Positions 1-13,474 of a stretch of DNA of 64,000 nucleotides are shown here, piece after piece. A model generated the notes under the pieces. The model was not told the origin of the DNA, did not search any database, and saw only the letters and a list, made by a program, of their open reading frames with translations. The position numbers were made by a program, and so were the translations under genes. The first letter of the stretch is position 1, and each line of letters opens with the position of its first letter. Location: contig NZ_AP023366.1 in the NCBI RefSeq assembly GCF_015097055.1, positions 1,216,501-1,280,500 on the forward strand. Direction: 5' to 3'. This DNA comes from Effusibacillus dendaii. GTDB taxonomy: Bacteria > Bacillota > Bacilli > Tumebacillales > Effusibacillaceae.

Positions 1-34
1 CCATTAAGATTCCTTGTACAACAGCCTGAAGCAA
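1..34 (-). CDS. livH: Branched-chain amino-acid ABC transporter permease, N-terminal fragment (partial)
   Basis: Only the first 11 codons lie in the window; the gene runs off the left edge. A TTG start at 34 is preceded by an AGGAGG ribosome-binding site at 43-48 with 8 nt spacing. The reading is MLQAVVQGILM, the usual opening of LivH-type permeases, whose first membrane helix follows. It lies directly downstream of the solute-binding lipoprotein gene on the same strand, the normal gene order for a Liv transporter, with a terminator-like hairpin between them. The identification rests on 11 residues plus context. Confidence 0.55.
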   Translation of the reverse strand, partial: MLQAVVQGILM

Positions 35-58
35 TGCGATGTCCTCCTCTCTTGGTTT

Positions 59-81
59 AAAAAGGGCGGGTACACCCGCCC
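59..81 (-). terminator. Hairpin with U-tract between livJ-like and livH-like genes
   Basis: Inverted arms GGGCGGGT (64-71) and ACCCGCCC (74-81) are followed on the minus strand by five T residues. It lies just after the binding-protein stop codon. In transporter operons such a partial terminator commonly leaves the binding protein in excess over the permease; that role is inferred. Confidence 0.75.
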
Positions 82-121
82 AATTGGTTCAACAATGAAG
101 ATGCCTCGAAAGAAGCTTTGA

Positions 122-1390
122 TTATTCAGCTTTATACGGGAATACAAGAGTTGCACCTTGACGGGCGTCGGCTTCCGGATATACCGTTACACGCTCAATT
201 TTGCCATTGATTTTCTGGAATTGCGCGATAACAAGTGACGGATCCGGTAAAGTTTGCGTGTCGTCAAAATGCATTGTCTTTGTATAGATCGTTGTTGGGC
301 CGGATGTAATATTGGTTGCTTTCAACGCTTCCCTCAGTTTGTCGCTGTCTGTAGACTTGGCACGCTCCAAAGCGTCTGCGATCGTGTAAATACCCGCGTA
401 TTCCTTAATCTGTTCGCCGGATGGATGCACCCCAAACTTATCAACAAACTTCTTGTCCAGTTCTTTGCTGCCTGGACGGTTCACATCCGGTTCCCAAGCG
501 GAAACGTCAAGCCAGTTTACAGCATCTTCCCCAGCGTTCTTCAGGAATTGTGGATCCGCTGTACCACCCGAAGTCGCAAGAAACACCTTCGGCTTTACTT
601 GCTGTTGCTTAAAGCCCTTTGCTAAGAGAGTTCCGTCTTGCACATACGAAACCATCAATACCACGTCCGGATTTGCATTCTTCACTTTAGTTACAACCGG
701 CGTCAAATCAGTCGCTTTCCGGTCGTACGCTTCATCCACCACGATGCTGTAACCGTTCTTAGGAAGTTCTTCTTTCCAGTACTTCGCCACACCTTGTCCC
801 CAGGATGAGTTTTCGTATACGAGAGCAACCGATTTCAGATCTGACTTTTTCTTCATGTCGTTTAAAAATTGAATTTGAGTTTTTACACGCATCGACGATG
901 TATCCGCAATCCGGAACACATATTTGAGTCCGCGTGCGGTGATCAAATCGTCAGATGGTACACTCGCAAACCAAATTTTCTTCTGCTTTTCCGCTTCTTG
1001 GCTGGCAGGGATGGTCATGCCCGATTGGTAAGCCCCGGTCAGCAATGCCACCTTTTCTTGCGTAATCAGACGGGAAGTTTCCGATTGCGCGACTTGCTGA
1101 TTGCCTTGCGAGTCTCCCCACACGACCTGGAGTTTTGCCCCATTCATGCTTTTGATGCCGCCTTTTTCATTAATCTCGTCGACCGCAAGTTGTATTGCTT
1201 TTTTGGATTGGTCGCCGAGTGGTGCTGCGTCACCGGTTAGCGGGAGAATGGCACCGATTTTGATCGTGCTGGAATCGGTGGAGCTTGGGTTGCTCGCAGC
1301 TTGCTGCTTGCCGCAACCAAGCAAACTGATTGACAGCAGCGAACCTGCAGCCACCAAAGCCAGTGATTTTCTGAAAATCTCTTTCTTCAC
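122..1390 (-). CDS. Branched-chain amino-acid ABC transporter substrate-binding lipoprotein
   Basis: This 422-residue extracytoplasmic solute receptor belongs to the Leu/Ile/Val-binding (Peripla_BP_6) family. A GTG start at 1390 follows an AAGGGGG site 9 nt upstream; a longer reading to 1432 lacks a ribosome site. The N-terminus has a basic region, a hydrophobic stretch and the lipobox SLLGC, so the protein should be lipid-anchored outside the membrane. The mature part begins with the family-typical IKIGAILPLTGDAAPLG. Later segments such as SVALVYENSSWGQG and PDVVLMVSYVQDG are the usual second-lobe motifs. The permease gene starts just downstream. A palindromic operator at 1456-1469 suggests control by the neighbouring LacI-type regulator. 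The true ligand could be another amino acid or a small acid. Confidence 0.9.
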   Translation of the reverse strand: MKKEIFRKSLALVAAGSLLSISLLGCGKQQAASNPSSTDSSTIKIGAILPLTGDAAPLGDQSKKAIQLAVDEINEKGGIKSMNGAKLQVVWGDSQGNQQVAQSETSRLITQEKVALLTGAYQSGMTIPASQEAEKQKKIWFASVPSDDLITARGLKYVFRIADTSSMRVKTQIQFLNDMKKKSDLKSVALVYENSSWGQGVAKYWKEELPKNGYSIVVDEAYDRKATDLTPVVTKVKNANPDVVLMVSYVQDGTLLAKGFKQQQVKPKVFLATSGGTADPQFLKNAGEDAVNWLDVSAWEPDVNRPGSKELDKKFVDKFGVHPSGEQIKEYAGIYTIADALERAKSTDSDKLREALKATNITSGPTTIYTKTMHFDDTQTLPDPSLVIAQFQKINGKIERVTVYPEADARQGATLVFPYKAE

Positions 1391-1441
1391 AGTTAAGAAC
1401 CCCCTTGCATGATCTTGGAAATGTATGTTCAACGACTGAAT

Positions 1442-1469
1442 TTGAATACATATCCTGAATACGTATTCA
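1442..1469 (-). promoter_or_regulatory. LacI-type operator upstream of the binding-protein gene
   Basis: The 14-bp perfect palindrome TGAATACGTATTCA lies at 1456-1469, about 66 bp upstream of the binding-protein start. A degenerate copy (TGAATACATATCC) abuts it at 1443-1455. The identical 14-mer occurs at 2565-2578, in front of the LacI gene. LacI family operators are normally even-length palindromes with a central CG, as here. Confidence 0.8.
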
Positions 1470-1533
1470 AATCCAGGCCGGAGAAACCAATGTATGCGCT
1501 TTCATAAGCGGCGTTAATCGTCTTTCGTTACCC

Positions 1534-2532
1534 TCATCTCTTTGGACCGGTAGTTTTACGAACGACCAGTTCAGGTTGAAGAATAATTTGTCTCGGATGG
1601 TCCGGGTCAACACCCTGCTCAATCATCTCAATGAGATTTTCGGCCGCGATTTCACCCATCCTGAATTTATGGTGACCGATACTTGTTAACTGGATGGCGT
1701 GATGGGAAGCCATCCGAATGTCATCGATTCCCGCAAGACTCACATCCTCCGGTATTCGCAATCCCAGTGAAAGCACTGCATCCATGCAGGAAAACGCCAT
1801 TGCGTCCGTCGCGCAAAGAATTGCAGTAGGCGGGTTGCTCATATGCATGAGCTTCAACGTAATTTTTTCGACTTCGGATGAACTTGTATCACAAACGTGG
1901 AACAAATCCGGTTCCAGAGAAAGTCCCGCTTCGTTCAACGCTTTTTCAACCCCAATTTTACGTTCAAGAAAAGTTGAAATATTTGTTTCTCCCGAAATGA
2001 AGGCGATTCTCCGATGTCCTAACTGGAGAAGATGGTGGGTAATCAATTCTCCCGACATACAATTGTCAAACACTACATAGTTGCCACCGCTTCGAGGGCG
2101 TCTGTTAAACAGCATATAGGGGATTCCAGACCGCTCAATTTCCTCAAACACGGGGTCGTCCAGCTTAATCGACGACAGCAGAATGCCATCTACCTGATTC
2201 CCCCTGATGGAATCGAAAATATCCCGCAACGCCATTGCACCCTCAAAGTAAACCATTGTTTTATATCCGCGGTTTGTTGCCAACGCTACAATCGAATTGG
2301 TTGTTTCCACGAAGAAGCCGTTGCTAAGCGTACCGGATATAAGAGCGATCGTACGCGTACTATTGGTTACGAGACTGCGAGCAATCAGATTCGGTTGATA
2401 ACCCAGTTCATCAATAGCACGCAATACTTTCTTTCGTGTATCCGGTTTAACGCTCTCCGGATTATTCAGCACTCGCGAAACTGTCGCTTGAGACACACCG
2501 GCCATTTTTGCAACGTCTCTGGAAGATACCAT
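1534..2532 (-). CDS. LacI family transcriptional regulator
   Basis: This 332-residue regulator has an N-terminal LacI helix-turn-helix (about residues 3-50, with DVAKMAGVSQATVSRVLNN and the hinge KVLRAIDELGYQPN). A periplasmic-binding-protein-like ligand and dimerisation domain follows from about residue 60 (RTIALISG, ILLSS, HHLLQLGHRRIAFISG, AILCATDAMA). It is transcribed in the same direction as, and upstream of, the transporter genes. The same palindrome precedes both this gene and the binding-protein gene, so it most likely represses itself and the transporter. The start ATG at 2532 has only a weak purine-rich site (GGGAG, 13 nt upstream). The effector is unknown; LacI proteins usually sense sugars or nucleosides, so pairing with a Liv-type receptor is slightly unusual. 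Confidence 0.9.
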   Translation of the reverse strand: MVSSRDVAKMAGVSQATVSRVLNNPESVKPDTRKKVLRAIDELGYQPNLIARSLVTNSTRTIALISGTLSNGFFVETTNSIVALATNRGYKTMVYFEGAMALRDIFDSIRGNQVDGILLSSIKLDDPVFEEIERSGIPYMLFNRRPRSGGNYVVFDNCMSGELITHHLLQLGHRRIAFISGETNISTFLERKIGVEKALNEAGLSLEPDLFHVCDTSSSEVEKITLKLMHMSNPPTAILCATDAMAFSCMDAVLSLGLRIPEDVSLAGIDDIRMASHHAIQLTSIGHHKFRMGEIAAENLIEMIEQGVDPDHPRQIILQPELVVRKTTGPKR

Positions 2533-2564
2533 GGCCTTTTATCTACTCCCTGCTTATCTGTTTT

Positions 2565-2578
2565 TGAATACGTATTCA
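2565..2578 (-). promoter_or_regulatory. LacI-type operator upstream of the LacI gene (autoregulation)
   Basis: TGAATACGTATTCA, a perfect 14-bp palindrome, is identical to the copy at 1456-1469. It sits 33 bp upstream of the LacI start codon, a position consistent with autorepression. Confidence 0.8.
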
Positions 2579-2688
2579 TATTCTAATTTGAGTATATATT
2601 GATAAAAATTTTTTGTCTATATTTCGAACGAAACTTTTTAATAATATTGAATATAAAAACAGATAAAGTTGATTGAAGTTAATAACCA

Positions 2689-3040
2689 TCACCCTAATTT
2701 TCTTTTTGCTTCCCACATTCGTTGAATGGCCGTAAAGATTTCCACGAAAACAAAAATCTTTGTGGTAATCAGCAGCCAGGCGGGGAACAGCATCATAATG
2801 GGGAAGAGGATAAAACCTTCCGTTCGTTCCGCCAAACCGGCCTGATAATAAAAGGATTTGACTCCTTTTTTCTCCGATAAAGCCCCTACCGTAAGAAACA
2901 CGGTCATGGAAAACACAATTCCAGCAGTAAGCAGTAACAGCCAAAACTGCACTTGCGGATATTTTGCCGCCACTCCAATGATTACAGACAGTTCCACGAT
3001 CCGGTCAAATGTAATGTCAAGCACCGTTCCCCACGCGGAA
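2689..3040 (-). pseudogene. CDP-alcohol phosphatidyltransferase, 5'-truncated remnant
   Basis: The open stretch encodes the C-terminal half of a membrane CDP-alcohol phosphatidyltransferase-type protein: LDITFDRIVELSVIIGVA, AGIVFSMTVFLTVGALSEKK, and a final hydrophobic segment with GLAERTEGF. Upstream of GTVLDITFD the frame meets a TAA near 3042, and no N-terminal domain carrying the catalytic D-x2-DG-x2-AR motif is present. About half of a normal protein of about 200 residues is missing. The internal GTG at 3024 has no ribosome site. I read it as a deletion remnant at the border of the AT-rich ParM island. Confidence 0.7.
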
Positions 3041-3083
3041 GGTTATTCTCGAGTATGTCTTCACTGCAATGTGGACAGATCAT
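2982..3083 (-). other. Short zinc-knuckle ORF created at the truncation point (33 aa)
   Basis: An ATG at 3083 with AGGAGA 7 nt upstream opens a 33-codon frame starting MICPHCSEDILENN. It has one CxxC pair and then runs out of frame through the phosphatidyltransferase remnant to a TAA at 2982. The first dozen residues look like the beginning of a real zinc-ribbon protein; the rest is probably out-of-frame junk from a deletion fusion. Whether it is translated is unknown. Confidence 0.3.
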
Positions 3084-3406
3084 AAATGTTCTCCTGACGT
3101 TTATGAAAAAGAATGTAAATGCTAAAACAAGTTGCATTGTTCGACAAAAAACGGTATTCCCCTTCTAGTGAAAATCTCCAAATACCGAAGATGAATCGGT
3201 AACATCAAAACAGTTTCCCGTACCGCCTATATCGTGATACGGAATATTTTTCTATATTGTCGGAATGGCACACAGTGCCGCCCATTATCATATTATCTCT
3301 GTACTGGGTGATTATGCTGCTTAACGTCCTGTACCAACAAGTCAACACAGTAGACTTGTTTGAATTTTAAAACGATTATAGAACATTATGTACTGGAGGA
3401 ATAGAA
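3084..3406 (+). promoter_or_regulatory. Intergenic region with candidate parM promoter and inverted-repeat operator/centromere
   Basis: This 320-bp AT-rich gap holds no gene I can support. Just ahead of the ParM-like gene is a perfect 8-bp inverted repeat, AACAAGTC (3336-3343) and GACTTGTT (3353-3360), with 9 bp between the arms. Its right arm overlaps a possible -35 (TTGTTT, 3356-3361), followed by TATAGA (3377-3382) and a GGAGG ribosome site (3395-3399). A ParR-type protein binding here to repress the operon, or to use it as a partition site, would fit known parMRC logic; this is inferred. Confidence 0.45.
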
Positions 3407-4483
3407 ATGAGCAAACACAAACTGATTGTTATGGGAATCGACCATGGGAACGGATATTACAAGGGATATAGTAACGAAGCAATAGAATTGATCCTGCCGA
3501 GTGGATTTCTTACGAAAGAGAGTGTGAAAAGGGAAGATTCAACGGGAGTAGGTGATGTGAACTATAATGAGTTTGAGTCAAGTTTATACGCAAGAGAACT
3601 TTATGTGTGGGGAAACGAGGTGAATAAAGTGAAAGGGAAGTACCTTTCCACCTATACAAGCGAAGACAGATATACTCAGAAGTATTACAAGTTATTAAGT
3701 CAGTTTGGGTTGGCAAGCCTTATCAGAGAAAAAGAAGGGACGTTCGAGGTTCTTGTGGTCACCGGTTGCCCCTCATGGGAAAAAGGAACTAAGCGGGAAG
3801 AAAAACTTGCCCAAGTTTTCAAAGGTCAACACACGATCCAAATGAATGGCAGGGAAAAAATTATTAACGTCAAAGAATGCAAAGTTTTGCCTCAACCAAT
3901 TGGAAGTATCCTGGATTTATATATGGATGAAGAGGGAAATGTCGACAGAGATGAAATCGGAACATCTTATATTGGCATTATAGATATCGGATATGGTACG
4001 ACAGATTGTGATGGAATCGATTCTTTAAAAGCCATCCCCGACGATCGTATTACCATTCCTGTAGGCGTTTATGACATTTATCAGCGTCTTTCTGATTACA
4101 TTAATTCCGTAAACCCTGATGCCTATGCAACCCCCCGAAGGGTAGAGATGCAATTTGAAAGTGATGTTTACTATTCTTCAAAACGTCTTTCTATACCTAT
4201 CAAAGAAGTGAAGGAAAGAATTGTCCGCGAAACAGCAGAATACATCATCAATGAACTTCAAACACGTTGGAGAAATAGAAGCAAGTTTGACATGATCATA
4301 TTAACAGGTGGCGGAGCAAAATTAATAAGACCTTGGGTCCAAAAATTCATAAGTGACATCCATCTAATTGAAGATTATCAAATATCAAACGTCAGGGGTT
4401 TCTATAAATTCGGATTATTGCTTTCAAATGACTATGAGGCAGAGGATTACCCCCAAAAGCAGGTTTTACAAGCTAGGAGATGA
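3407..4483 (+). CDS. ParM/StbA-like actin family protein (plasmid-segregation type)
   Basis: This 358-residue protein has the actin/Hsp70-type ATPase fold seen in ParM, Alp7A and related filament-forming segregation proteins. Visible motifs are the N-terminal phosphate-1 loop VMGIDHGNGYYKGY, the phosphate-2 segment GIIDIGYGTTDCDG near residue 190, and the adenosine motif IILTGGGAKLI near residue 300. The length is typical of the family. GGAGG lies 7 nt before the ATG. The stop overlaps the start of a 23-codon ORF, and a ribbon-helix-helix-like ParR candidate follows, as in two-gene partition operons. Base composition is clearly more AT-rich than the flanking housekeeping genes, which suggests acquisition from a plasmid or phage. 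MreB can be excluded by sequence style and context. Confidence 0.85.
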   Translation: MSKHKLIVMGIDHGNGYYKGYSNEAIELILPSGFLTKESVKREDSTGVGDVNYNEFESSLYARELYVWGNEVNKVKGKYLSTYTSEDRYTQKYYKLLSQFGLASLIREKEGTFEVLVVTGCPSWEKGTKREEKLAQVFKGQHTIQMNGREKIINVKECKVLPQPIGSILDLYMDEEGNVDRDEIGTSYIGIIDIGYGTTDCDGIDSLKAIPDDRITIPVGVYDIYQRLSDYINSVNPDAYATPRRVEMQFESDVYYSSKRLSIPIKEVKERIVRETAEYIINELQTRWRNRSKFDMIILTGGGAKLIRPWVQKFISDIHLIEDYQISNVRGFYKFGLLLSNDYEAEDYPQKQVLQARR

Positions 4484-4488
4484 CTGGC

Positions 4489-4560
4489 ATGAAGAAAACC
4501 AAATCCATTATCCTCCAGGTGAATTTCAATGAATTCAAAACCAAAAGCAAAGCGGAATAA
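4489..4560 (+). other. Micro-ORF linking parM and parR candidates (23 aa)
   Basis: AGGAG (4475-4479), inside the end of the ParM gene, is 9 nt before an ATG at 4489. An alternative in-frame ATG at 4480 overlaps the parM stop as ATGA. The frame reads MKKTKSIILQVNFNEFKTKS and ends at TAA 4558-4560. The peptide could be a leader that couples translation to the next gene, or the displaced beginning of the ParR-like protein. It resembles no family I know. Confidence 0.35.
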
Positions 4561-4609
4561 ACCATTACGAAAAAGTCGCGATCTTCCACAATTCTCTGAG
4601 GAGGTTTTT

Positions 4610-4903
4610 ATGCAAAAGGCTGACCGTTTTCTTAACGGAACAGATGAACAGAATCAACTTCTTGATAGCTATATAAAAACGAAAGGTATTCAGTATGTCC
4701 TGGATGCAATACGGGAAAAGGAAACACGACGTTTTATTGTTGATGAGGATGAGATCGCAGACAAAACTGCCAATCGAATCATTCAAGTCCTTCTCAAAGA
4801 GTTGCCAAACAGATTACAAGTTTCTGCCCCCGTGAATACCGTAAATACAAAAACCATGCCCAAAAACAGGCCAGATGTGGAAAGGCTAAAAGGTTTACTT
4901 TAA
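4610..4903 (+). CDS. Putative ParR-like partner of the ParM-like protein
   Basis: A 97-residue protein starts at ATG 4610, because an ideal GAGGAGG (4598-4604) stands 5 nt before it. The open frame extends upstream to an ATG at 4529 (124 residues), but that start has a weaker site. The segment FLNGTDEQNQLLDSYIKTKGIQYVLDAIREKE has the spacing and helix pattern of the ribbon-helix-helix domain found at the N-terminus of ParR proteins. A helical middle (DKTANRIIQVLLKEL) and a basic tail follow. Position downstream of the actin-like gene is the classic place for the DNA-binding adaptor. No clear sequence match to a named family is visible to me, so the role is inferred from context and size. Confidence 0.55.
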   Translation: MQKADRFLNGTDEQNQLLDSYIKTKGIQYVLDAIREKETRRFIVDEDEIADKTANRIIQVLLKELPNRLQVSAPVNTVNTKTMPKNRPDVERLKGLL

Positions 4904-4906
4904 TAA

Positions 4907-4926
4907 GGGAGGTTGCTTAACCTCCC
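4907..4926 (+). terminator. Hairpin closing the parMR-like operon
   Basis: Perfect 8-bp arms GGGAGGTT (4907-4914) and AACCTCCC (4919-4926) around a GCTT loop start 3 nt after the parR stop. The downstream tract is TAAAATAT rather than a T-run, so termination may be partial. Confidence 0.6.
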
Positions 4927-5057
4927 TAAAATATGTAAATGGTGAACGTCGGATTTCAAATGGGACAACTTGTATCTCTCTTCCCATTTTCGTATTACCT
5001 GTTTTTGATCATAATGAAGATAAGATGAATTTCCTTGACTGGGTGGGATGACACGTG

Positions 5058-5951
5058 ATGGACATTCTCATTTTTGGCGGATCCGGTTTTGTCGGTCAGC
5101 ATTTGGCTAAGTATTTGGAAAAAATGGGGTACCAGGTTTGGGTTGCTTCGAGAAGGCAGCAGGAAGTTCGTTATGGAAAAAATGTGGTGTATACGCTTGG
5201 GCAGATTTTACCCCTTTTGGAAAATAGGGAGCAGGAGTATGGTGTGATTAACTTGGCAGGACAATCGATCAACTCAGGCAGCTGGACGGCGGCAAGAAAA
5301 AAAGAAATTCTGGAGTCACGCATACATGTAACGCAAGGCATAACAGAGGCGATCATGCAAGTGAACAGAAAACCCCAGGTTCTGATCAACGCCTCCGCCA
5401 TCGGATTTTATGGCTATTCTGATGAAAAAACATTCACCGAAGAGGATGCAAAGGGAACAGGTTTTCTGGCCGAAGTCACACAGCAATGGGAAGAGACGGC
5501 CAAGCGGGCAAAGAGCCATACCCGCGTTGTCCTTGCCCGCTTGGGAGTGGTACTAGGGCGAGATGGCGGAGCCCTTCCTCGAATGGCGACACCTTATTCA
5601 TTTTATTTAGGAGGGAGGGTAGGAACCGGGAAGCAGTGGATGTCATGGGTTCACATCGATGATGTATGCGGGATTTTCCATCACTGTATCGGTCGGGATA
5701 CAATTGAGGGTCCAGTCAATGTTACAGCGCCTGTACCTGAGAGAATGGACCGGTTTGGAAAGGCGATTGGCGATGTATTGCATAAGCCGCACTGGATTCC
5801 GGTCCCTTCGTTTGCGTTGCAATTGTTGCTGGGGGAAATGTCGGAAATCGTTTTGCAGGGACAAAGGGTACTGCCAGAGAAAATGCTGGGCAGCGGCTAT
5901 TCTTTTCAGTACGGGACAGTATCCTCGGCTTTACAGGATTTATTAAAATGA
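5058..5951 (+). CDS. TIGR01777-type NAD-dependent epimerase/dehydratase family protein
   Basis: The 297-residue protein has a Rossmann nucleotide-binding start, ILIFGGSGFVGQHLAKYL, and the conserved internal motifs of this SDR subfamily: VINLAGQSI, RIHVTQGITEAI, LINASAIGFYG, RLGVVLGRDGGALPRM and WVHIDDV. These match the YfhF/SDR39U1-type proteins, whose physiological substrate is not established. ATG 5058 is chosen because a GGTGGGA-like site lies upstream; GTG 5055 directly precedes it. It stands alone between the ParM island and a convergent cyclase gene. Confidence 0.85.
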   Translation: MDILIFGGSGFVGQHLAKYLEKMGYQVWVASRRQQEVRYGKNVVYTLGQILPLLENREQEYGVINLAGQSINSGSWTAARKKEILESRIHVTQGITEAIMQVNRKPQVLINASAIGFYGYSDEKTFTEEDAKGTGFLAEVTQQWEETAKRAKSHTRVVLARLGVVLGRDGGALPRMATPYSFYLGGRVGTGKQWMSWVHIDDVCGIFHHCIGRDTIEGPVNVTAPVPERMDRFGKAIGDVLHKPHWIPVPSFALQLLLGEMSEIVLQGQRVLPEKMLGSGYSFQYGTVSSALQDLLK

Positions 5952-6938: not shown

Positions 6939-8516
6939 GTGGATCTTGTACAAAACGATTTTTTTAAAATAACCGTTCAGGAACAGGACGAATTGTTCAT
7001 AACTGTTTTTCGCAGCGGATTTGAGGCACAAAAACTCGGTGCCATCCTGGAGCAATATCCCCGCATGAAAATCACCGATTTCAAGTCGCTTGGCACTGCC
7101 CTCAAAGAAGCGACTGAAGCACCTGTGAAAATCGGCGTCCTTCGCGCCCCGATTGAAGTCACCTTGTCAAAAGATCAGATGGACGCCAGCATCAAACTCT
7201 ATCTGTCGGAGGAAGAACTGCTTTCCCAATATGACTTTGTTCGCTCGGAGATTCTTGCAATTTTGGAAGCGCATCAAATTACGGAAGGAATTTTACCGGA
7301 TGCGTTAGACCGCTTGCAGGCCAAGCAGGATTTGGTGATTGCCCGCGGCATCCCTCCCGTTCACGGGGAAGATGCACAAATCTCGTATGTGCAATTGTCT
7401 GAAAAAAGACCGACTCTCTTAAGCGATGGCAGGGCCAATTTTTATGAGTTGAATTTTATTGACCGGGTGGAAAAAGACGGCTGGCTGGGAGAGAAGATTC
7501 CGCCGACCGCAGGCACACCAGGGCGAACTGTAACCGGACAGCCGCTGCCTCCCAAACCGGGCAAGGATAAACCTCTCTTGTATGACAAAAACTCGGTGTA
7601 CGAATCGCATGAAGACGGAAAAGTGGTTCTGCGCGCCGCCCGGGAAGGCGCTATTCATTTTGAGAACGGAAAAGTATCCGTCATCGAACACATTATCATC
7701 GATGGCGACGTGGGCCCTGCAACCGGCAACATTAAATACAGCGGTTGTGTAACTGTAAAGGGGACGGTGCATGACGGATACAGCGTTGTCGCCGACAAGG
7801 ACATTTCGATTCTCGGCGAAATCGGGATCGGAGCGGTTGACAGAATTGTCTCCTTATCAGGCAGCGTCTTGATAAAAGGCGGTATTTTCGGTCGCAATAA
7901 AGCGTTTGTGCAAGCGAAAAAAGATGTCATCGTGAAGCATGCAAACGATTGCATCATAAAGGCAGACGAACATATCTATGTTGGCCTGTACACGATCGGC
8001 AGCCAGTTGTTTGCCAAGAGTATCATCCTGGATCAACAGCGTGGGAAAATCATCGGGGGCGAAACGCACGCCGAAGTGAAAGTAGTAACCGCATACCTCG
8101 GCAACGAGCTGGAACGGACAACTCCCGTTCGCATTGAAGGATTTAACCGGGCAGACATTCTTCGCCAGATAGATCAACTGTTAGAGGAATACAAATCCAC
8201 ATTGATACTGCAAGAAAAAATTCAGCGGGAGCTGGCTGTGTACGAGACCGTGTTAAACCGTTTAAGCGACGATCAGCTGCAGGAGGTTCATTTTTTCAAA
8301 CAGAGGCAGGAAGAGTTGGCAGACAAACTGTACGCTATGGAGGAAACGCGGCAGGCTCTCCTGACATTTCTGCAATCAAAAGGGGAGGGTGAGGTCTCCA
8401 TCCTGAAAAAAGCGTTCCCGAAAACGGTTCTGCAAATCAAACATACGCAGAAACGAATCGATAAGATTACTTCCGGGACATTTTACGTGCTTGATTATGA
8501 ATTATTATATGAATAG
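6939..8516 (+). CDS. DUF342/FapA-like polymer-fold protein
   Basis: The protein is 525 residues from a GTG start at 6939, preceded by AGGAG with 9 nt spacing; the open frame extends a little upstream without support. The N-terminal part (residues 1-130) is poorly conserved. The centre carries the FapA/DUF342 signature PPTAGTPGRTVTGQPLPPKPGKD. A long right-handed beta-helix-like stretch follows (VKGTVHDGYSVVADKDISILGEIG, VLIKGGIFGRN, DVIVKHANDCIIKADEHIYVG), then a coiled-coil-like region from about residue 415. FapA-like proteins are linked to cell-surface or motility regulation, but their biochemistry is poorly known. It is 14 bp upstream of a triple-GAF protein gene and almost certainly co-transcribed with it. 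Confidence 0.85.
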   Translation: MDLVQNDFFKITVQEQDELFITVFRSGFEAQKLGAILEQYPRMKITDFKSLGTALKEATEAPVKIGVLRAPIEVTLSKDQMDASIKLYLSEEELLSQYDFVRSEILAILEAHQITEGILPDALDRLQAKQDLVIARGIPPVHGEDAQISYVQLSEKRPTLLSDGRANFYELNFIDRVEKDGWLGEKIPPTAGTPGRTVTGQPLPPKPGKDKPLLYDKNSVYESHEDGKVVLRAAREGAIHFENGKVSVIEHIIIDGDVGPATGNIKYSGCVTVKGTVHDGYSVVADKDISILGEIGIGAVDRIVSLSGSVLIKGGIFGRNKAFVQAKKDVIVKHANDCIIKADEHIYVGLYTIGSQLFAKSIILDQQRGKIIGGETHAEVKVVTAYLGNELERTTPVRIEGFNRADILRQIDQLLEEYKSTLILQEKIQRELAVYETVLNRLSDDQLQEVHFFKQRQEELADKLYAMEETRQALLTFLQSKGEGEVSILKKAFPKTVLQIKHTQKRIDKITSGTFYVLDYELLYE

Positions 8517-8530
8517 AAAGAGGAATCGGC

Positions 8531-10339
8531 ATGTCTAACATTGCCAGCAAGTTATTCCGCTATGAAGCGCTGCTGAATGCAATTGAAGTGTTCACACAGA
8601 AATTCAGCCTGGATCAGATTTGCAACTTTGCATTTGAGTTTACGAACGAAGTGCTGACCCTGCATGCTTCGATGTTGTTTGTCAAACAGGGAGATGATTT
8701 CGTTTCGGTACGGCAAAAACTGTATCCATTCGAAAATTACCGGATTGAAAATTCGGAGCGGTTGGAACGGATCGCCACTTTTCACGGAAAGAGCATTCGA
8801 AATCGCTTCGAGCTGTTTTTTGCCCCGAAAGATATTGACTATCTGACCATCCGATTTGTAATTCCCCTGATTATTCACGACACCCTCTACGGGTTTATCA
8901 TTTCGGACGGTAAAATCTTAGGCGAGCTTGACGATGACGACTATGATGTTGCCAACAAATTGATGTCACTTGTCAACCATTCTCTTGAAAACAGTAAGCA
9001 ATTTGCCGATTTGCAGGCGAAAAATCAGCTTCTCGACCAGACCAATTTTAATTTGTTCATGATTAACCAAAGTACAAAAGCGCTGCTGTCAGAAGTGACT
9101 TTGGACAAGCTGTATGCAAATGCGATCGATGTATTTAGCGAAGTGTCCCGCAGCGCGGTGACCTCTCTCGGTATTTATGATGAGTGGAGCGACACGATTA
9201 AAATCCGGGGCTACCGCGATGTGTTTTCACACAGCAAACAATATGCTGAACTGCAGCTTCACAAGCAAATCGATTCGGGTCACAAAATCGTGCTGTCGAT
9301 GGAGCATGATCAAGACATCATTCAATCGATTTTTGTAAATTGGCAGCAATTTGCCGTTTTACGGGCCAAATATATCGTTCTGATCGTAAAAGACCGGGTG
9401 ATTGGCTTTGTCACGTTAAGCGAGTCGGTCGATCATCATGATTATGACGAATCCTATTTTCAACTTATTGAATCGCTCGCTTCCGCCACCTATATTGCGG
9501 TCAATAACGCCTTACTGTTCGACGAAATTTCGGCGCAAAAAAAGACGCTTGAACAAAAATACAACACGCTGAACAATCTCAACAAACTGGTGAATACCAT
9601 TAATCATTGCGACAATCAGGAGGAAATTTGCTATTTAACGCTGCGCACGCTGCATCTGTCATTTGGCATCAAAAAAGCGTTTATCTGTTTCAAGAAAAAC
9701 GGATTTTATTTGATTGAGCATGCGATTGGCGCGGAGCTTCACCAGGAGAGGTTTGTTCTAAGCGACCCCTGGCAAAAAACGTTTGACGGAGATACGGTTT
9801 TTGAATATACAACGGCAAGCGCCCACGATTTTTTTAATGATGCGGAGCTTGTTGAGTCGTTCGGCAATACGAACTGTATCGTGATTTCACCGCTTCTGTT
9901 CCACAACCCATCCGCGTATCCCGGACAGGAGCCGGAAGGATTTCTCGTCATTCTGGAAACGAAAGACATCCTAAAGGAAGAAGAGGTTCTGCTGATTGAC
10001 ACGATCGCTAAAAACATCTCACCGATTTTGCGGCAGATCAAGCTGACAGACGCGGTAAAAGAGCGTTACGTGGAAGATGTCAGCAAAAAGTTTCTCGCTA
10101 TACTGGCCGAAAAAATCAGGAACAGAGAACAATATCAGATCGAATTTTATCTGTATTATCGCAAAATAGAGCGAAACCCCTTTCAAGCAATCGATCCGAA
10201 TACCTATCCTGGGCTGGAAACCTATTTCATCAATCCGTACCTGTTTGTGCTTACATATGAACCGCTTGCAGACCCACAGTTTAAAGAAATCCCCAGAATT
10301 CAAACCGCTTTGGATCTGCTTCAGTATCCTTTTATCTGA
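8531..10339 (+). CDS. Triple-GAF-domain protein without recognisable output domain
   Basis: The 602 residues contain three GAF-like modules, roughly 22-155 (ending RFVIPLIIHDTLYGFIISDG), 185-335 (KYIVLIVKDRVIGFVTLSES) and 355-500. The third is introduced by a helical linker (KKTLEQKYNTLNNLNKLVNTI). The last 100 residues (EKIRNREQYQIEFYLYYRKIERNPF) match no kinase, GGDEF, HTH or phosphatase domain I know. GAF domains bind small ligands or nucleotides, so this looks like a sensor whose partner acts in trans. AAGAGGA precedes the ATG. A strong terminator follows, giving a two-gene operon with the DUF342 gene. Confidence 0.75.
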   Translation: MSNIASKLFRYEALLNAIEVFTQKFSLDQICNFAFEFTNEVLTLHASMLFVKQGDDFVSVRQKLYPFENYRIENSERLERIATFHGKSIRNRFELFFAPKDIDYLTIRFVIPLIIHDTLYGFIISDGKILGELDDDDYDVANKLMSLVNHSLENSKQFADLQAKNQLLDQTNFNLFMINQSTKALLSEVTLDKLYANAIDVFSEVSRSAVTSLGIYDEWSDTIKIRGYRDVFSHSKQYAELQLHKQIDSGHKIVLSMEHDQDIIQSIFVNWQQFAVLRAKYIVLIVKDRVIGFVTLSESVDHHDYDESYFQLIESLASATYIAVNNALLFDEISAQKKTLEQKYNTLNNLNKLVNTINHCDNQEEICYLTLRTLHLSFGIKKAFICFKKNGFYLIEHAIGAELHQERFVLSDPWQKTFDGDTVFEYTTASAHDFFNDAELVESFGNTNCIVISPLLFHNPSAYPGQEPEGFLVILETKDILKEEEVLLIDTIAKNISPILRQIKLTDAVKERYVEDVSKKFLAILAEKIRNREQYQIEFYLYYRKIERNPFQAIDPNTYPGLETYFINPYLFVLTYEPLADPQFKEIPRIQTALDLLQYPFI

Positions 10340-10364
10340 ACCAGGAAATCAATTGCCGTAAAGG

Positions 10365-10400
10365 AAAAGGATGTGGAACGCTGAACTCCCACATCCTTTT
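10365..10400 (+). terminator. Rho-independent terminator of the DUF342-GAF operon
   Basis: Arms AAAAGGATGTGG (10365-10376) and CCACATCCTTTT (10389-10400) pair perfectly around a 12-nt loop, followed by TGCTATTTTTT. The symmetric A/T flanks may also serve the convergent gene. Confidence 0.85.
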
Positions 10401-10453
10401 TGCTATTTTTTCGTTGTTATTTTTATGTTGCTTATCTCTTTTGGTTGTGTTGC

Positions 10454-10918
10454 TTATCTCTTTTTGCGCGGCTTTGTTTTCCGTTTGCTCAGTCTTACAC
10501 GGATGGACGTCTCTGTCTCCGTATGGCGGGAAATCATGTCGGGCGTCAGTTTCCCCTTTGCTGTCAGCATCGAAAAATCGAACGGCGTTTTGAGTTCGTC
10601 TTTCGCAATCAGCAGTTCATGCGCCAACGCTTCTTTGTCCAACACCTCACGAATGGTCGCTTTCTTGGAAAGAACCGCATATTCCCCGTTCGGCAGTTGA
10701 AAAATCAACTCGTCTTCCTGCATCTGTTCAAAAAAATGTTCAATTTCCTCGAACAGCATCTTGTTTTCTTCTTTGCGTTCATTCGCAATTTCCTTGTTCT
10801 GAAAATAGCGCAAAATCTTTTCTTCCACCAACTGTCCAAAAGCTTCCTGCGATTGCTCCGCCTGCTGCTCTGTCTGATTATCTACCGCTGCTGTTTCCGC
10901 TGTTATTTCCGTTGCCAT
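10454..10918 (-). CDS. Hypothetical charged protein with acidic body and basic tail
   Basis: The start ATG at 10918 (MATEITAE) follows GGGGAGG with 10 nt spacing, giving 154 residues; the upstream extension in the open frame has no ribosome site. The N-terminal third is rich in Gln, Glu and Ala (DNQTEQQAEQSQEAF). The middle is helical and acidic (NKMLFEEIEHFFEQMQEDELIF), and the end is strongly basic (LSKRKTKPRKKR). There is no signal peptide or membrane helix. I do not recognise the family. It sits next to, and in the same direction as, the PBP-trmR-mltG block. Confidence 0.6.
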   Translation of the reverse strand: MATEITAETAAVDNQTEQQAEQSQEAFGQLVEEKILRYFQNKEIANERKEENKMLFEEIEHFFEQMQEDELIFQLPNGEYAVLSKKATIREVLDKEALAHELLIAKDELKTPFDFSMLTAKGKLTPDMISRHTETETSIRVRLSKRKTKPRKKR

Positions 10919-11011
10919 TCCATTACGTCCTCCCCTGCAAAAGATCGCCACATCCACTATACAGGAGAAGGTTGCCGGAAAAAAGGAACGGAAGTCCTAT
11001 GGACAAGCGAT

Positions 11012-12760
11012 TTATGGCAGGGAATCAACAATTTGCCGTGTCACATTTTGCACCATTTGACTGCCGTTTTCCGTTTCCACATCTTTGGCCATTACGACAA
11101 TGACATATTTCGGGTGGTCTGCCGGTGCGTAACCGGAGAACCAGTAATGATAGGCATTCTCCTTGCCGGTCTGGGCGGTGCCTGTTTTCCCCGCGACTGG
11201 CATTTTGGCGGAATTTAACAGGTGAGCCGTTCCTTTCGGTTCACTTACCACTTCCCGCATCCAGCGCTGCAGTTCACGCGCCGTTTCCGGTTTTATGACC
11301 TGGGTTGGCTTCGCGGGAGCAGGGAGAGTTTTGTACAATTCGTTATCCGGACTGGTCCGCCATTCTTTTAACAGGCGCGGTTCGCGTGACAGCCCACCTT
11401 GACTGACAACCGCCATCATATGCGCCACCTGTAAAGGCGACAGGCGAACATCCTCCTGTCCGATACCCGTATTGGCAAGCAGACGGTCGGACGTTTCCGG
11501 TTTGGCAAAAATCTGCCCGGCATCTTCCCGGTCAACCTGCGGTTTTCCATCGATTTTTTGCAGCGGCGGCTTTCCCAGTCCAAACTTGTCCGCATATTCT
11601 TCGATCGTCTGTCTGCCCAATTTCATCGCAAGCGTCGAAAACACCACATTGCACGATTCTGCAAATCCCTGTTCAGCCGTGATTTTGCCGTGCGTGGTCC
11701 AACAGTTAAGCCGTCCGTCGCCAATCTCGATATAACCGGGACAATTGAACACATCGTCTGCATGCACGATCCCTTTTTCCAACGCGGCGGCCGCAATCAC
11801 TGTCTTGAACACGGAACCTGGAAAATCCGCTTCCAACGCTTTATTGACCGGATATTCATTTTGCTTGAGCGGTGCATCCTGATCAAACTGCGGTCGGCTG
11901 GCCATCGCCAAAATCTCTTCGCTTGCCGCATCCATTACAACGACCGACCCGTTTGTTAACCCATATTGATCCATGGCTGCTTCTGCCGTTTTCTGTACAT
12001 TGTAATCCAATGTCGTCTTGACAGACAGCGCATGATTTTCTTCTTCTTTCATTTGAATGCCGAGTCCATTGATGGGCTGCTTGTCCGCGCCGATGAAGTA
12101 GGAGATTTCCTTACGTTTTCCGAGTCCCCGCAGTTCATTCTGGAACAGATACTCGAGGCCCATTTTTCCGATCTGTTCATTAGACGGGTATTTGCCGCCA
12201 AATGCGCTTTCCGCTAACTGCGGATCAAGGCCGACAAAACCAATCAAATGCCTGGCAAGCGAATTTTCGTCGTAGCGAATTTTGACTTCCTTCGGATAAA
12301 TGCCGGGCAGATGCAGTTTTTCAATTGATGCCGCCTGACTGTCGGTCAGTTCGACCGGTTTTCGACTGCCTTTCTTGTCCGGCAATCTAAGCAATGCCGG
12401 ACGGTCAATCATCGCCAGATTCTGCTGAAGCGTCTGCAGATCGGTCTGCAGAATATCAGCCAGTTGTTTTAATTTCTGCCTATCCGGGTCACCTGTCCAA
12501 AGCGGCATCACCAACACGCCGCGAATGCGGGAGCCTGTCAACGATTTGCCGTTCCGATCCAAAATATCGCCGCGTCCGGAATCGATCACCCATGTTTCTT
12601 TCCGCTGTTCGACAGAAGTGGCCACCAGATCATGCCCCTGCATGTCGTGCCGTGCCCAAATCTGAATATAAAAAAGCCGCCCCAGCAGGGCGACCAACCC
12701 GATTGAAAAAAGCGATAAAATCAGTAACAGCCGCTTTTGCACCGAGTGCTGCGTCGACAT
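11012..12760 (-). CDS. Penicillin-binding protein, class B transpeptidase (PBP2/FtsI-like)
   Basis: This 582-residue membrane-anchored peptidoglycan transpeptidase has a single N-terminal membrane helix (LLLILSLFSIGLVALLGRLFYIQI). A dimerisation domain (RGDILDRNG) and the transpeptidase domain follow. The three active-site motifs are present: SVFK with the nucleophilic Ser, SCN, and KTGTAQTG. It is shorter than vegetative PBP2 proteins and has no PASTA repeats. It may serve septal, spore or repair synthesis; the exact class is unsure. The start was placed at 12760 after a GGGGGTGG stretch; GTG 12778 is an alternative. trmR and mltG lie upstream on the same strand. Confidence 0.88.
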   Translation of the reverse strand: MSTQHSVQKRLLLILSLFSIGLVALLGRLFYIQIWARHDMQGHDLVATSVEQRKETWVIDSGRGDILDRNGKSLTGSRIRGVLVMPLWTGDPDRQKLKQLADILQTDLQTLQQNLAMIDRPALLRLPDKKGSRKPVELTDSQAASIEKLHLPGIYPKEVKIRYDENSLARHLIGFVGLDPQLAESAFGGKYPSNEQIGKMGLEYLFQNELRGLGKRKEISYFIGADKQPINGLGIQMKEEENHALSVKTTLDYNVQKTAEAAMDQYGLTNGSVVVMDAASEEILAMASRPQFDQDAPLKQNEYPVNKALEADFPGSVFKTVIAAAALEKGIVHADDVFNCPGYIEIGDGRLNCWTTHGKITAEQGFAESCNVVFSTLAMKLGRQTIEEYADKFGLGKPPLQKIDGKPQVDREDAGQIFAKPETSDRLLANTGIGQEDVRLSPLQVAHMMAVVSQGGLSREPRLLKEWRTSPDNELYKTLPAPAKPTQVIKPETARELQRWMREVVSEPKGTAHLLNSAKMPVAGKTGTAQTGKENAYHYWFSGYAPADHPKYVIVVMAKDVETENGSQMVQNVTRQIVDSLP

Positions 12761-12844
12761 CCTGCCACCCCCGTCCACTTTTTGTATGCGTGAATGTCAC
12801 GATACCCTCAGTGTTGACGGAAAAACAGCCGGATAAACGAATGG

Positions 12845-13474
12845 CTACTGTTTCTTCACCGACACAGCCAACCCGTCGCCAAGCGGTACAAATGCCGTTT
12901 CCAACAACGGATGATCGGCGATCAACCGATTGTACTCCCGCAGCCGCATGACGATCGTTCGCAGCTTATGTTTCACATGTTCCGGTCCAGCCACTAACCC
13001 CTGAAAAAACACGTTGTCACTGAACAGCGTGCCGCCTGAACGAAGCAGAGGCAGCACCAGTTCCAAAAAGTTAGGATACTGCCCTTTGGCTGCATCCAGA
13101 AACACAACATCAAACGGCCCTTGTACAGACGAAAGCAGCTCAAAAGCGTCTCCCTCCAACAGTTCAATCCGCGCCAGGAGTCCTGCTTTCGCAATATTTT
13201 GCCGCGCTTCTTCCGCCCGCTCCGCATCCCGTTCGATGGTAACAATCGATGCGGTGCAGGAGCGTGCCATCCAGATCCCCGAATAGCCGATAGCCGAACC
13301 GATCTCCAAAATCCGCTTCGGCTGCAGCTGTTGCAGCGTAACCCGTAAAAACTGGGCGGTTTCCAGATCGAGAATCGGAATATACAGTTCTTCCGCACGC
13401 TGTTCCATCGCACGCAAAAGTTGATCCCGGGGCGGGACCAATTCCCGTATGTAACTGGTCAACTGGTTGTCCAT
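12845..13474 (-). CDS. trmR: tRNA 5-hydroxyuridine methyltransferase (O-methyltransferase family 3)
   Basis: This 209-residue class I SAM-dependent O-methyltransferase shows the family motifs ILEIGSAIGYSGIWMA (SAM loop), VTIERDAERAEEARQNI and FDVVFLDAAKGQYPNFLE (metal and acceptor site). In Bacillus the gene between mltG and the U32 peptidase genes is yrrM/trmR, which methylates 5-hydroxyuridine at tRNA position 34. The preserved position 12 bp after mltG supports the name. The start at 13474 follows AGAGG with 9 nt spacing. The usual downstream yrrN-yrrO peptidases are absent here and a PBP gene follows instead. Confidence 0.82.
   Translation of the reverse strand: MDNQLTSYIRELVPPRDQLLRAMEQRAEELYIPILDLETAQFLRVTLQQLQPKRILEIGSAIGYSGIWMARSCTASIVTIERDAERAEEARQNIAKAGLLARIELLEGDAFELLSSVQGPFDVVFLDAAKGQYPNFLELVLPLLRSGGTLFSDNVFFQGLVAGPEHVKHKLRTIVMRLREYNRLIADHPLLETAFVPLGDGLAVSVKKQ

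Follow-up and report, generated by a model that had tools for sequence, protein, structure and literature searches.

The closest described systems to the locus analyzed here are the ParMRC partition systems and a recently reported group of chromosomal ParMR pairs. In pSK41, ParR binds 10-bp direct repeats (parC) upstream of parM, the C-terminus of ParR is indispensable, and in the absence of ParR and parC the filaments of ParM stay static (PMC4911067). In R1, a 17-residue C-terminal region of ParR contacts ParM, as PMC4911067 states citing Gayathri et al. Chromosomal ParMR pairs were reported in 2025 with their roles unassigned (PMC12270681). In that report, Dh-cParM1 is conserved and syntenic across its genus and Cb-cParMR has a repetitive parC bound by ParR; neither Paenibacillus nor Effusibacillus is mentioned in its main text.

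The window is a stretch of 64,000 nucleotides from Effusibacillus dendaii (contig NZ_AP023366.1, positions 1,216,501 to 1,280,500). A sequence-only reading had proposed that it carries a plasmid-type ParM/ParR module on a chromosome, composed of an actin-like ParM gene, a small RHH-like partner, an upstream inverted repeat and a closing hairpin. Our analysis points to a solitary parM-parR cassette of the chromosome, of a kind spread horizontally among Bacillota and here in decay, and not to a working partition module, a reading to which we assign a probability of roughly 0.7. The cassette is indeed ParM/ParR-derived and chromosomal, but the RHH half of the partner is destroyed, the proposed operator differs from the element that relatives share and no iteron centromere was detected. 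The features, in window coordinates, are:

2689 to 3024, minus strand: left neighbour, recognized by eye as a probable remnant of the C-terminal end of a gene for a membrane transferase
3265 to 3294, plus strand: promoter-like element, seen in an alignment made by eye to be shared by the regions ahead of the cassettes
3336 to 3360: inverted repeat present in the window, arms 3336-3346 and 3350-3360
3407 to 4483, plus strand: parM, intact ORF of 358 aa, gene of an actin-like filament ATPase of the pSK41-ParM type
4489 to 4560, plus strand: disrupted 5' part of parR, MKKTKSIILQVNFNEFKTKSKAE followed by a stop codon, homologous to the N-terminal strand and the first part of helix 1 in ParRs that are intact
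4556/4557, plus strand: junction of a 17-nt frameshifting deletion, a gap relative to loci L055, L056 and L021
4529 to 4903, plus strand: out-of-frame remainder of parR, a 124-aa ORF from an internal ATG, with ParR homology from about 4556
4894 to 4939: hairpin after parR, arms 4894-4914 and 4919-4939, candidate transcription terminator

The claim of an actin-like ParM gene held. The product of the intact ORF shows the IDHGNG, DIGYGTTD and LTGGGA motifs and matches the Pfam families ALP_N and MreB-like_C, the PHROG partition protein phrog_691 (E 7e-57), pSK41 ParM over its full length (PDB 3js6, E 1e-40) and the NCBIfam plasmid ParM model NF010498 (E 1e-78, yet under the curated cut-off of this model). 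Judged by its sequence, it is an actin-like ParM with intact nucleotide-binding motifs, as in ParMRC (type II) systems. The gene is present in one copy in this single-contig genome of 3.45 Mb. The AT-rich island was also seen, with a GC content of 0.392 in parM versus 0.457 in the flanks. The neighbours are ordinary genes, with no plasmid genes among them, so that the locus is, by its gene content, a chromosomal parM with an adjacent parR in which the latter is a disrupted copy. The truncated phosphatidyltransferase gene proposed on the left is plausible by eye, but a Pfam search of this neighbour gave no match. The remnant is joined at about position 3040 to unrelated sequence, probably a deletion scar adjoining the cassette. 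A short ORF on the minus strand (2982-3137), beginning MICPHCSEDILENN, continues into the remnant, suggesting that the beginning of a zinc-ribbon-like gene became joined, through a deletion, to the final part of a gene for a membrane transferase.

The close relatives of the window ParM, at 67-75% identity, belong to eight cassettes, found in Paenibacillus and in one genome of another order (loci L017 to L020 and those of genomes G170, L003/L021; G435, L056; G451, L055; and G492); G170 is in the same class as the window and in a different order. The nearest ParMs of annotated plasmids are at most 47% identical to it. In a FastTree phylogeny of ParM, which had been suggested as a check, the nine cassettes form a single clade (support 1.0) on a long stem, and the tree singles out no sister group. 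The cassette is present in 6 of 395 sampled Paenibacillales genomes, a sample that takes in the genomes of L017, L018 and L019, and in 2 of 399 genomes of the class sample, the window's own counted. This parM gene was not found in the three other genomes of the window's genus, and this ParM is not a conserved chromosomal gene throughout the family, the situation that the sequence-only reading had named as evidence against itself.

The cassette of G451 lies on a 4.70 Mb contig, the size of a complete chromosome, and the gene order around the cassette of G435 is the same, so two species have retained the cassette at a shared chromosomal location. The contigs of L017, L056 and L057 measure 35-65 kb and, among them, L056 alone has chromosomal support, via this synteny. 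Loci L017 and L020 share 93% DNA identity across the cassette of about 2 kb only, their flanks being unrelated, suggesting movement of the cassette as a single piece. No empty insertion site was found for L055, where the flanking regulator was seen only in two genomes bearing the cassette, or for the window, where the neighbours have no counterpart in three genus mates. A tblastn search with the L055 ParR gave no match at E up to 1 among 72,556 plasmid and 50,697 phage records, and a scan of viral contigs revealed a single distant ParM (37%, L063) and nothing related to ParR. As a separate observation, the cassette of Paenibacillus sp. J2TS4 (L020, flanks 1-5600 and 7858-12955) stands between large ORFs without assigned function; these include the gene of a 1132-aa protein that resembles an SMC/RecF-type ATPase, with that of a 301-aa partner beside it, and the region may serve in defence or be mobile.

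Intact parR starts directly after parM in all eight relatives, and its products follow the pattern VKKxxSIxFxxN...RFC(R/K)EAFIEKADR...KGIxYxLDAIxEKE...KPDxEKLKALL. They are laid out as an N-terminal RHH-like part, whose strand corresponds to the conserved VKKxxSIxFxxN, a helical domain, a linker that varies from short to about 500 residues across the clade, and the conserved KPDxEKLKALL tail, which is probably a ParM contact. By eye the N-terminus shows a beta-alpha-alpha pattern, and the AlphaFold model of the intact L055 ParR presents a coil and then two helices, an RHH-like order predicted with low confidence (pLDDT 50). On this pattern, the intact ParRs likely have an RHH fold. No usable match was obtained in Foldseek with this low-confidence model, none in a profile comparison of the clade ParR with short plasmid ParRs, and no convincing family in Pfam, PHROGs or PADLOC. 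With respect to the linkers, the ParR of Paenibacillus xerothermodurans (L019, 7081-8904) reaches 608 aa, with about 500 residues of repetitive low-complexity sequence running from the N-terminal domain to the C-terminal tail, and shorter repeats of the VSSTGESNTD type, in differing copy number, occur in those of L017 and L020.

In the window, and only there, parR is broken; it is in one frame in the eight relatives. DNA alignment against L055, L056 and L021 showed a single gap of 17 columns at 4556/4557 with homologous sequence on both sides, after which the 4489-4560 frame reaches a TAA. This deletion shifts the frame in helix 1 of ParR, so a full-length ParR could not be made. The 4529-4903 ORF retains helix 2, the helical domain KTKGIQYVLDAIREKE, the linker and the C-terminal tail NRPDVERLKGLL, and is devoid of the N-terminal strand and the greater part of helix 1; its AlphaFold model is a helical bundle with no strand (pLDDT 65). 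Its ATG is preceded by AGGTGA at 6 nt, and a restart at this codon could partly compensate for the deletion. The helix-2 residues RFCxEAF, invariant across the relatives, are QFSEEVF in the window. From the alignment, 4529-4903 is not an intact gene, and the window has no adjacent intact DNA-binding ParR of the kind found in ParMRC systems and in the eight relatives. The sequence-only reading had taken this ORF for a small RHH-like partner and had named the lack of an RHH fold as grounds against its own proposal; the ORF does lack that fold, the strand lying out of frame at 4489-4560 with 17 nt missing. Programmed +1 frameshifting between the two ORFs was considered and is unlikely, given the 17 missing bases and the lack of a conserved slippery site.

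Between L055 and L056, parM shows a dN/dS of about 0.07, and in comparisons with the window in which dS is not near saturation the value is about 0.10-0.15, pairs with saturated dS (e.g. L021) giving meaningless values for the window gene. At parM sites that are invariant elsewhere, private changes number 15 of 173 in the window, 16 of 174 in L057 and 12 of 170 in L021, the last two being the long-branch relatives in this comparison. The window parM looks constrained on these figures, neither accelerated nor unusually relaxed. In ParR, 8 of 30 otherwise invariant sites are changed in the window and 0-2 of 21-23 in the others; relaxation of parR is only suggestive because this excess, with a Fisher p of 0.002 against the pooled others, has a p of 0.05 once the comparison is confined to the two long-branch relatives.

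A TTGTCA-N17/18-CATAAT-like element recurs upstream of parM in the relatives, where the -35 is TTGTCA in seven of the eight and ATGTCA in L021. The promoter-like element of the window (3265-3294) has ATGGCA as -35, an 18-bp spacer and CATATT as -10, and is a putative promoter. The inverted repeat that had been read as an upstream operator exists at 3336-3360, but alignment revealed no counterpart in the upstream regions of the relatives, and the conserved element is the one at 3265-3294 instead. The proposed closing hairpin was also found; it has no T-run on the plus side and is a possible transcription terminator.

No iteron parC was detected near parM in the nine cassettes. A repeat test of the 350 bp upstream of parM gave nothing over background in any of the nine and recovered 11-bp spaced repeats in the plasmid cassettes of Brevibacillus (L064) and Aneurinibacillus (L065), its power being limited in that other plasmid controls are too AT-rich or weak to exceed background reliably and degenerate or distant sites could escape it. 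A phased-repeat scan covering 2 kb on the upstream side and as much as 3 kb on the downstream side found no array in the window or the relatives except L019, and a TGTCAC-type parC-like pattern gave counts close to those of the reversed-pattern control in five genomes. An extra exact match of this pattern in genome G401 was rejected as a parC site, its surroundings being unlike a par locus. The exception in L019 is a tandem array with a 12-bp period (about 12 copies, TTCATCTGTTAC-like), located from about 1750 to 1560 bases upstream of parM, in the gap after a glutamate dehydrogenase gene.

In the intact copies, a single promoter would drive the two-gene unit, ParM would polymerise and ParR, by analogy with pSK41 and R1, would link DNA to the ParM filament, binding each with a different end. 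In the window, the 17-bp deletion would leave at most a truncated protein, started at ATG 4529, with the tail and without the DNA-binding strand. ParM may still be produced there, and without DNA-bound ParR it would form only static filaments. The window copy should not partition DNA, because ParM and the tail are kept but the DNA-binding start of ParR is gone; some function may persist, as parM appears constrained on the window branch.

That constraint on an intact parM is what would be seen in a domesticated filament system, in which ParM, by itself or together with the truncated ParR, has kept a chromosomal function that has nothing to do with partition of DNA. The ParM-binding-type tail and predicted helical bundle of the truncated ORF are consistent with it, and chromosomal ParMs of unassigned role have been published (PMC12270681). 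However, the constraint may predate the deletion, the truncated partner is changed at many otherwise invariant residues, the window -35 is weaker than those of the relatives and the three other genomes of the genus have no cassette; we consider such a system unlikely. Much less credit is due to a working plasmid-type partition module or a recently integrated plasmid remnant, the main proposal of the sequence-only reading. In spite of the gene order of pSK41 parMR and the AT-richness relative to the flanks, the parR frameshift already contradicts function, no iteron parC was detected, the nearest relatives are chromosomal-type cassettes and the clade ParR is absent from the plasmid collection. 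It is just as improbable that the frameshift is a sequencing or assembly artefact in an intact clade member. The species is represented by one genome and its parM is well preserved, but a gap of 17 nt is unlike a homopolymer slip and the invariant helix-2 residues are altered too. Between a plasmid scar and a domesticated system, the two outcomes proposed earlier, the scar is nearer to the decaying cassette that we favour, but its nearest relatives are solitary cassettes, on contigs of chromosomal or unassigned type, and not plasmids.

More tentatively, and with the odds against it, the nine cassettes could represent a chromosome-only ParM/ParR lineage that lost the canonical centromere and took a role other than plasmid partition, the window holding a ParM that outlived its DNA adaptor. 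If so, possible roles would be moving or scaffolding other cargo, or interfering with incoming plasmids. The clade offers a test set, made up of two-gene units that are intact, chromosomal and lack a detectable iteron centromere, together with a naturally occurring copy in which the adaptor is broken. Should the intact cassettes prove active with no parC close by, actin-like filaments would have a chromosomal role other than plasmid segregation; should they have no measurable effect, they would be a class of mobile fossils mislabelled by annotation as plasmid partition genes.

Compared with known systems, the locus shares with pSK41 ParMRC the full-length ParM homology, the parM-then-parR order and the ParR C-terminal tail. 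Unlike pSK41, with its 10-bp parC repeats, the clade shows no detected parC repeats, its ParR has no detectable similarity to the compared short plasmid ParRs, and the window ParR is broken. The closest annotated-plasmid ParMs, those of Brevibacillus and Aneurinibacillus plasmids (NZ_CP085877, NZ_CP085875 and NZ_CP080765; 43-47% identity), differ from the clade in that their cassettes (L064, L065) have ParRs of 74-78 aa and 11-bp phased iterons upstream of parM. With Dh-cParMR-1 and Cb-cParMR (PMC12270681) the locus shares the solitary chromosomal parM-parR pair without plasmid genes. However, Dh-cParM1, only weakly similar to the window ParM (8x1i, E 0.003), is genus-wide and syntenic, whereas the window lineage is rare, patchy and at differing sites, and the ParR-bound repetitive parC of Cb-cParMR has no detected iteron counterpart in the clade. 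What is new here is a distinct cassette clade in which no iteron centromere was detected, with a ParR family that has no database model and a natural copy whose adaptor is broken.
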